Under the pieces are notes generated by a model. It saw only the letters and a list, made by a program, of their open reading frames with translations. It made no database searches and had not been told where the DNA came from. This document shows positions 2,310 to 3,703 of a DNA stretch of 37,898 nucleotides, piece after piece (the first letter of the stretch is position 1; each line of letters begins with the position of its first letter). A program made the translations under genes and the position numbers. This DNA comes from an uncultured Mycoplasmatota bacterium (lineage in GTDB: Bacteria > Bacillota_I > Bacilli_A > RF39 > UBA660): assembly GCA_947569245.1 (NCBI GenBank), contig CANORV010000008.1:1-37898 (forward strand). Reading direction: 5' to 3'.

Positions 2310-2320
2310 TTCTTTTTTTT
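2274..2320 (+). terminator. gpsA intrinsic terminator overlapping the stop codon
   Basis: AAAGAACTA (2274-2282) pairs with TAGTTCTTT (2307-2315), followed by a T run to 2320. An inner CTTTTC/GAAAAG stem extends the structure. The TAG stop is part of the 3' arm. Confidence 0.7.
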
Positions 2321-3655
2321 ACTGAATTAATGTATCTTTTATTATATTTGAATTTTCTGATTTAGTTAAAATCATCTGATCTACTAAATCACTAGTTTCT
2401 TGTGTATAATTTATTATTATTTGACTTTCCTCATTTATTGCTGCATTAGTAAGCATATATTCATAAGTTGTTATATTAGGATTTGTTATATTGATAGTTG
2501 TTTTTAAATTCTGACATTCATGAAATAACATAGACATGCCTGTTACTTTAGTTAGATTAAGATTACCTAAATTTAAATTTGTTAAGTTATTACAAAAATT
2601 GAACATAAGAGAGATTTCTGTTACATTACTTGTATCAAAACTACTCAAATCGAGACTTTTTAAACTGCTACATTCTGAAAACATAGCCCACATATTTACG
2701 ACGTTACTTGTATCAAAGTGTTCTAGGCCTTCAATAGTTTCTAGTGATGTAAATGCTCCAAAGAATGAATTACTATCTTCGTTTGCTTTTATTCCACCGT
2801 TTCCCTGTAAATATAAAGTAAATAAACCTTCTACTTCAGATGGAGCTAAATAGGCCATTACTCTTTTAGTCTCATCAATTTTATCTTCTGCAACATTCCA
2901 TGATTCTATAGCATTATCTATTTCATGAATATTGTCTTCCATAATAATTTTTGATATTTTTTCTTTATATATTGGATTCCAGAATTCTTCATCATATGAT
3001 GAATCTCCAATAGTTTGGATAACAGGTAAGTCATTATTAATAGAACTTGCTATTACTGTTATTTTTCCTTGCCATGTTGCATTCATTACATCTTCACTTG
3101 CTGGAGTATCATAATCTAGCCATAGTCTTAGGCTAAACTGTTTACTTTCTTTACCGTTTAAGATACCTTTGTGAATCTTGTATGCATATACGGTATTTTC
3201 TATTACTTTTTCTTCAGTTAAATAAGTTTCATACAAATCATCAAAAAACAATTTATTACTACCACTAACTAAACTTGTTCTTACCGAGCTATCTGGTAAC
3301 CATTTTGTGTCGTAATCTGTTTCAGTAAATGACTCTAAATTGATTGCATATCCAGTGGCATCTGCACAAGTATTTTCAATAGTGAAGGTATATGGTGTTA
3401 ATTTTTCTGCCTCCTCATTAGTGATTGGATAGGCTTCTTGTAAATTAATAGCATTTGTTGCATCTGTTAATATCAAATTTAAACAGCCAGTTGTTATGAC
3501 ATTAGTATCAGTTTGTTGTAATGTAATTTGCCATAAAGCATAACTTGCACCAAATATTACTATTATTAAAGTTATTAATATGGGGATGATTACTTTTCTA
3601 TTTGTAAAGTACCCCCCCCCATAGATGATTTTTTTGTTATTTTTTCATTCTTCAT
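2319..3655 (-). CDS. BspA-like (DUF285) surface protein, out of frame at a poly-G tract
   Basis: The long open frame (2319-3476) has no credible start. Its frame continues upstream through a hydrophobic anchor (KVIIPILITLIIVIFGASYA) up to a run of nine G on the coding strand. Across the run, one extra G joins it to an ATG at 3653-3655 (MKNEKITKKSSM), giving a 445-residue protein. With nine G the ATG frame stops after 22 codons. After the anchor comes a domain resembling exported TasA/camelysin-like N-termini (AYPITNEEAEKLTPYTFTI), then DUF285/BspA repeats (FDTSNVVNMWAMFSECSSL and two more) near the C-terminus. The product is probably a surface protein. The gene as assembled is OFF: either phase variation or a base-count error. 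Confidence 0.75.
3612..3620 (-). repeat. nine-G homopolymer inside the surface-protein gene
   Basis: A run of nine C on the plus strand, GGGGGGGGG in the coding direction, at codons 12-15 of the surface-protein gene. Ten G or seven G would restore the frame; nine breaks it. I noticed no other G/C run of this length in this AT-rich window. Confidence 0.9.
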
Positions 3656-3674
3656 AATTTTCAATTCCCATATT

Positions 3675-3703
3675 TTTATACAGCTAATTAACTATTGTTT
3701 CAA
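3675..3703 (-). promoter_or_regulatory. promoter of the BspA-like gene
   Basis: Minus strand TTGAAA (3698-3703), 17-nt spacer, TATAAA (3675-3680). Transcription would start near 3668, about 13 nt before the ATG at 3655. This supports 3655 as the real start. The remaining gene-free stretch (3704-3965) shows only an AT-rich 9-bp inverted repeat at 3724-3772. Confidence 0.65.

Follow-up and report, generated by a model that had tools for sequence, protein, structure and literature searches.

Does the run of nine guanines near the start of a surface-protein gene act as a switch for that gene? The run lies on the minus strand at 3612-3620 (C9 on the plus strand) of the window, by which we mean the whole 37.9 kb stretch of DNA analysed (26.4% GC), and starts about 35 bases into the gene. 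An earlier note on this DNA had placed a G9 tract here and proposed slipped-strand phase variation. The tract is confirmed, and we consider it very probable that it is a simple-sequence (poly-G) contingency locus undergoing phase variation by slipped-strand mispairing, which is the best explanation of what is seen in the paralogs, the sister species and the relatives. Support for phase variation is far greater from these paralogs and relatives than from the window alone.

The G9 tract and the window gene

The G9 tract is the sole G/C run of more than five bases within the window. Runs of one to five bases number 7092, 1238, 110, 20 and 1, followed by a single run of nine, and none of 100 dinucleotide-preserving shuffles of the window contained a G9. 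By run counts and shuffles alike, the tract far exceeds chance length.

The start codon of the gene is an ATG at 3653-3655, 35 bases upstream of the tract; this and all following features are on the minus strand. In the assembled (off) state, translation from the ATG yields a product of 21 codons in total before a stop (3590-3655), so that the early stop described in the earlier note is confirmed; its 22 codons are 21 and a stop codon. Beyond the tract, 430 codons and a stop (2319-3611) form an open frame that is out of frame with the ATG as assembled. The window copy is in frame with 7, 10 or 13 G. Ten G give the 445 residues claimed previously, while seven G, for which the same length had been claimed, leave the frame open for 444; G8 and G11 give 18 and 19 residues.

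If the tract is a phase-variable switch, slipped-strand mispairing during replication would add or remove a G. In the G9 state ribosomes starting at 3655 would stop after 21 codons and no surface protein would result, and in the G10 (or G7) state the anchored DUF285 protein would be made. Presumably the tract mutates at a high rate in living cells and expression follows the reading frame at the tract, and the purpose would be to vary the surface presented to host, phage or neighbours.

The translated downstream frame carries a hydrophobic signal anchor (KVIIPILITLIIVIFGASYALW, 3531-3596), similar in about 40 genomic paralogs, and a DUF285 domain of the BspA/Mycoplasma surface-protein type (Pfam PF03382, 2439-2759; E 5e-16, 59 bits vs a cut-off of 25), in agreement with the anchor and domain named in the earlier note. 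The predicted surface location is based on the N-terminal hydrophobic stretch, which is plain in the sequence. The description "BspA-like" holds through DUF285 but not through the LRR_5 BspA model, which had no match in the window protein in the Pfam search and does match paralog C42 (51 bits vs a cut-off of 27.7).

Upstream of the ATG are a Shine-Dalgarno sequence GGGA (3666-3669; GGGAG in most paralogs), a -10 element TATAAA (3675-3680; TATAAT in several paralogs) and, across a 17-base spacer, a -35 element TTGAAA (3698-3703) that is conserved in several paralogs. This TTGAAA-17-TATAAA promoter was picked by eye, and promoter-like matches are frequent in such AT-rich DNA. A promoter just upstream had been claimed earlier, and its position is kept in several paralogs, for example C40 and C85, which have TTGAAA-17-TATAAT at the equivalent position. 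The promoter at 3675-3703 is missing from the automatic scan because the scan requires a final T. Between the ATG and the tract, alignment of the copies revealed an A7 run (3629-3635) that is A6 in the otherwise near-identical C85 copy. Because of this one extra A ahead of the tract, the window copy would be turned on by a different number of G.

Tract-bearing paralogs and their reading frames

The source genome assembly totals 1.40 Mb over 94 contigs, with a completeness of about 72%, and the window is on contig 8. It contains 16 runs of at least seven G: four of length 7, none of length 8, eight of length 9 and four of length 10. The four G7 sites are scattered at unrelated places. Eleven of the 12 runs of at least nine share one site in one paralogous surface-gene family, always with 9 or 10 G. 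At this site the tract is followed by TACTTTACAAA, encoding Tyr-Phe-Thr-Asn (YFTN; once Ser-Phe-Thr-Asn, SFTN), and then by the membrane anchor. The N-terminal domain recurs in some 40 genes or gene fragments of this genome. Roughly one in four of them thus has the tract, and the remainder have normal starts. Exact-pattern scans for the coding motif gave 15 matches in named genomes (unrelated taxa) and three in viral contigs.

To assign reading frames, the start of each copy was defined as an ATG or GTG that lies 26-79 bases upstream of the tract and has a Shine-Dalgarno-like stretch. One of the 11 copies is in frame, on contig C11 (G10), and the other 10 are off. In one other species of the genus, the sister species, 3/3 copies at the same site are out of frame. 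For the genus as a whole, 13 of 14 tract-bearing starts are therefore off (11 in this genome and 3 in the sister species, with C11 alone on), and the 14 tracts comprise nine G9 and five G10. As the same switch sits at the same place in 11 genes of the family, each cell would display members of the family at random, in most cases a small share of them.

An assembly or sequencing error could produce a spurious off state: the true tract would then be in frame, with ten G or some other suitable number, and the gene would simply be on. Homopolymers are prone to error, the assembly is fragmented and incomplete, and several of its contigs end 26-60 bases past a tract. However, the 11 copies require different numbers of G for the on state (10 in two copies, 8 or 11 in nine) and yet read only 9 or 10, so a single systematic miscount cannot mend all of them. 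The separately assembled sister species has the same pattern, and the promoter-spacer tracts of other genera, described below, are independent of frame. We therefore regard error as an improbable explanation. It should also be noted that many contigs in several genomes end about 26-60 bases past a poly-G tract (L043, L050, L051, L169, L176, L181, L212 and others); short-read assembly may fail there because paralogs have sequence in common or because the tracts are polymorphic in length.

The assembled state of the window gene yields just 21 codons, as would a fixed frameshift in a decaying pseudogene. Decay of the downstream frame, which the earlier note had set against a switch, is not seen: the frame is intact, with 430 codons open downstream of the tract, and complete sister genes are open too. 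The off copies retain long open frames, with the complete ones in this genome spanning 412-557 aa. Furthermore, off copies C14 and C40 give a dN/dS of 0.31 over their whole length, and of 0.05 within the N-terminal 150 codons, a simple Nei-Gojobori estimate that gene conversion could depress. Given this purifying selection between two off copies, we consider decay very unlikely. An internal start at the ATG touching the tract was considered and rejected, as it is without a Shine-Dalgarno sequence. Close to the tract, the off copies also showed no start in the downstream frame with a Shine-Dalgarno sequence ahead of it.

Retention of downstream frames in copies that are nearly all out of frame is also what a slippery site would give, with RNA polymerase or ribosomes slipping on the G run and making some full protein at any DNA length. 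Three observations argue against this. Near-identically flanked copies differ in tract length; in the promoter-spacer tracts of relatives there is no reading frame that slippage could restore; and C33, a twelfth paralog in which the tract is interrupted (GCGTGGGGGAGGGG), is exactly in frame from a Shine-Dalgarno-led GTG, as expected for a locked-on gene. Slippage during expression is, in our assessment, quite unlikely to account for the tract. If one third of the starts were expected to be on, the observed 1/14 would be low (P = 0.027, with copies that are non-independent). The slight excess of off states could reflect selection for off, or expression that is not set by frame.

Loss of mismatch repair was considered as a cause and is not supported, since MutS was found in this genome and in nearly all of family f1; its presence here gives no indication that slippage is raised by a general mismatch-repair defect. 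The majority of the other families in the class have a second, shorter MutS-type match, probably MutS2, which was not seen in family f1.

Poly-G tracts in related genera and a putative second source of variation

The earlier note expected such a switch to be unusual in this kind of Bacillota, and suggested looking for further poly-G genes in this genome and counting the tract length in related ones. That expectation was not borne out: there are 11 same-site loci in the genome, including the window copy, same-site tracts in the sister species, and many tracts in related genera, in coding regions and often in promoter spacers. G9 or longer is present in 22 of the 45 genomes sampled around the source genome. 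Genus g15 has tracts in coding regions, where similar anchored proteins begin; by hand count about 3/10 of these are in frame, and the same genus also contains the promoter placement. In several other genera the tract occupies the spacer from a TTGAC box to a -10 box, ahead of signal-peptide or anchor genes. Other genera of the family carry G9-G14 in the -35/-10 spacer of surface genes, some with the same N-terminal family. The pattern TTGAC...G9...TANNNT matches 38/296 genomes of the class, with 0 matches for the backward control.

Spacer lengths at 65 listed sites range from 14 to 24, with 53 at 17-20. These are around or just above the usual optimum, and single-base changes should therefore alter promoter strength, to judge from known promoters such as Neisseria porA (PMC3639595). 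With 31-32% identity across about 190 aa (E 1e-20 to 1e-24), the promoter-tract genes of genus g13 belong to the N-terminal family of the window gene. One kind of protein would thus be promoter-switched in one genus and frame-switched in another. In both placements the tract sits where a change of length would toggle translation (coding copies) or transcription (promoter spacers of the relatives). The best reading is a poly-G phase-variation repertoire that is lineage-wide, with a mechanism like that of Campylobacter and Neisseria.

Tract length differs between otherwise similar copies, indirect evidence that the tract may be hypermutable. Nine g13 copies with near-identical flanks have 9, 9, 9, 10, 11, 11, 13, 14 and 14 G (promoter-spacer tracts at L206-L213 and L074), and two g15 contigs have a common stretch of 117 bp in which the sole difference is one gap at the tract. 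These length-differing copies are probably paralogs, not alleles.

Two further genera have tracts in conserved blocks. In g22 (L186-L205, L225), 26 of 29 G-runs of at least eight are exactly G9, mostly within a conserved TGCAACT-G9-TGC(A/G)ATACA block upstream of secreted-protein genes. These lengths look less variable than expected of a switch and, being nearly fixed, the g22 tract may instead be a site for a regulator. In g2 (L214-L218), G9 or G10 occurs in a conserved block, TATGCACAC-Gn-TAAATATTTACCCCTC, ahead of genes for secreted or pilin-like proteins; a clear -35 box is lacking.

The twelfth G9 of the source genome, on contig C38, was rejected as a member of the switch set. It belongs to another gene, is in frame there and falls within a hypervariable stretch close to the 3' end. 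The C-terminus of this gene aligns with those of family members that lack a tract, on contigs 2, 5, 6, 48 and 56, and variable C-termini of tract-free members are found at L046, L123, L124, L126 and L128. Changes in the variable C-termini are concentrated at particular codons inside otherwise conserved DNA, a pattern resembling the targets of diversity-generating retroelements. Contig 10 starts with the end of such a variable C-terminus and encodes a reverse transcriptase of the diversity-generating type (motif GIPIGNYTSQ; L239:990-2024), beside a small gene whose product resembles, by eye, the MutS N-terminus. A template repeat was looked for and not found, and the putative retroelement is therefore only a lead. 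We tentatively propose, as a reading with somewhat less than an even chance of being right, that one anchored N-terminal family is split between two engines, with poly-G tracts turning some members on and off and a retroelement rewriting the C-termini of others, and that across the lineage, within this one protein family, the switch has changed place from promoter to coding region or the reverse.

Comparison with known systems

These data point to a small-genome bacterium, of no known pathogenicity and apparently uncultured, with a Campylobacter-style poly-G repertoire that takes the promoter form in related genera. Its genome size, GC and gene content suggest a place among the Bacillota or Mollicutes-like bacteria. 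Counts of tract length in existing metagenome reads make the question of phase variation testable. Because the assembled state is off, many such genes would be annotated too short or missed, a warning to annotators that an off-state assembly hides or truncates surface genes of this kind.

In Campylobacter, tract lengths peak at 9 (53%) and then 10 (26%), and tracts of at least 8 are known to switch (PMC6321876). The tracts described here share with that phasome a location mostly inside ORFs, G on the coding strand, the 9-then-10 peak and many loci per genome. Unlike in Campylobacter, one family holds nearly all of the genome's tracts, and both the bacteria and the genes are unrelated; Campylobacter switching has been experimentally shown (PMC6321876). 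For Neisseria meningitidis porA, PMC3639595 describes a promoter poly-G tract that alters surface-protein expression. This is what we propose for the -35/-10 spacer tracts of the relatives, but porA is a single gene in a Gram-negative pathogen, and the tract of the window gene is in the coding region. Mycoplasma hominis vaa, an adhesin gene of the Mollicutes, is cited in PMC2831843 for 5' poly-A frameshift switching. It too has a homopolymer at the 5' end of the gene and a reversible frameshift, though in poly-A and in a single gene.

For these proteins, Candidatus Mycoplasma girerdii offers the closest biological precedent. BspA-like genes of strain UC-B3 carry dinucleotide repeats of variable length, often with the predominant form off and a minor variant on (PMC5476646). 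Both systems involve BspA-like surface proteins in a large paralog family, in which a change in repeat length truncates or restores the protein, and M. girerdii, a Mollicute, belongs to the Firmicutes in the broad sense, as the bacterium described here probably does. The M. girerdii genes differ in using dinucleotide repeats (e.g. CA) instead of poly-G, and in that their length variants have been demonstrated in reads. A limited literature search gave no report of a poly-G repertoire in this lineage. The mechanism itself is known; what is new is the lineage, how many loci there are, the existence of two placements, and poly-G in so AT-rich a genome of Mollicutes-like or Bacillota-like type.
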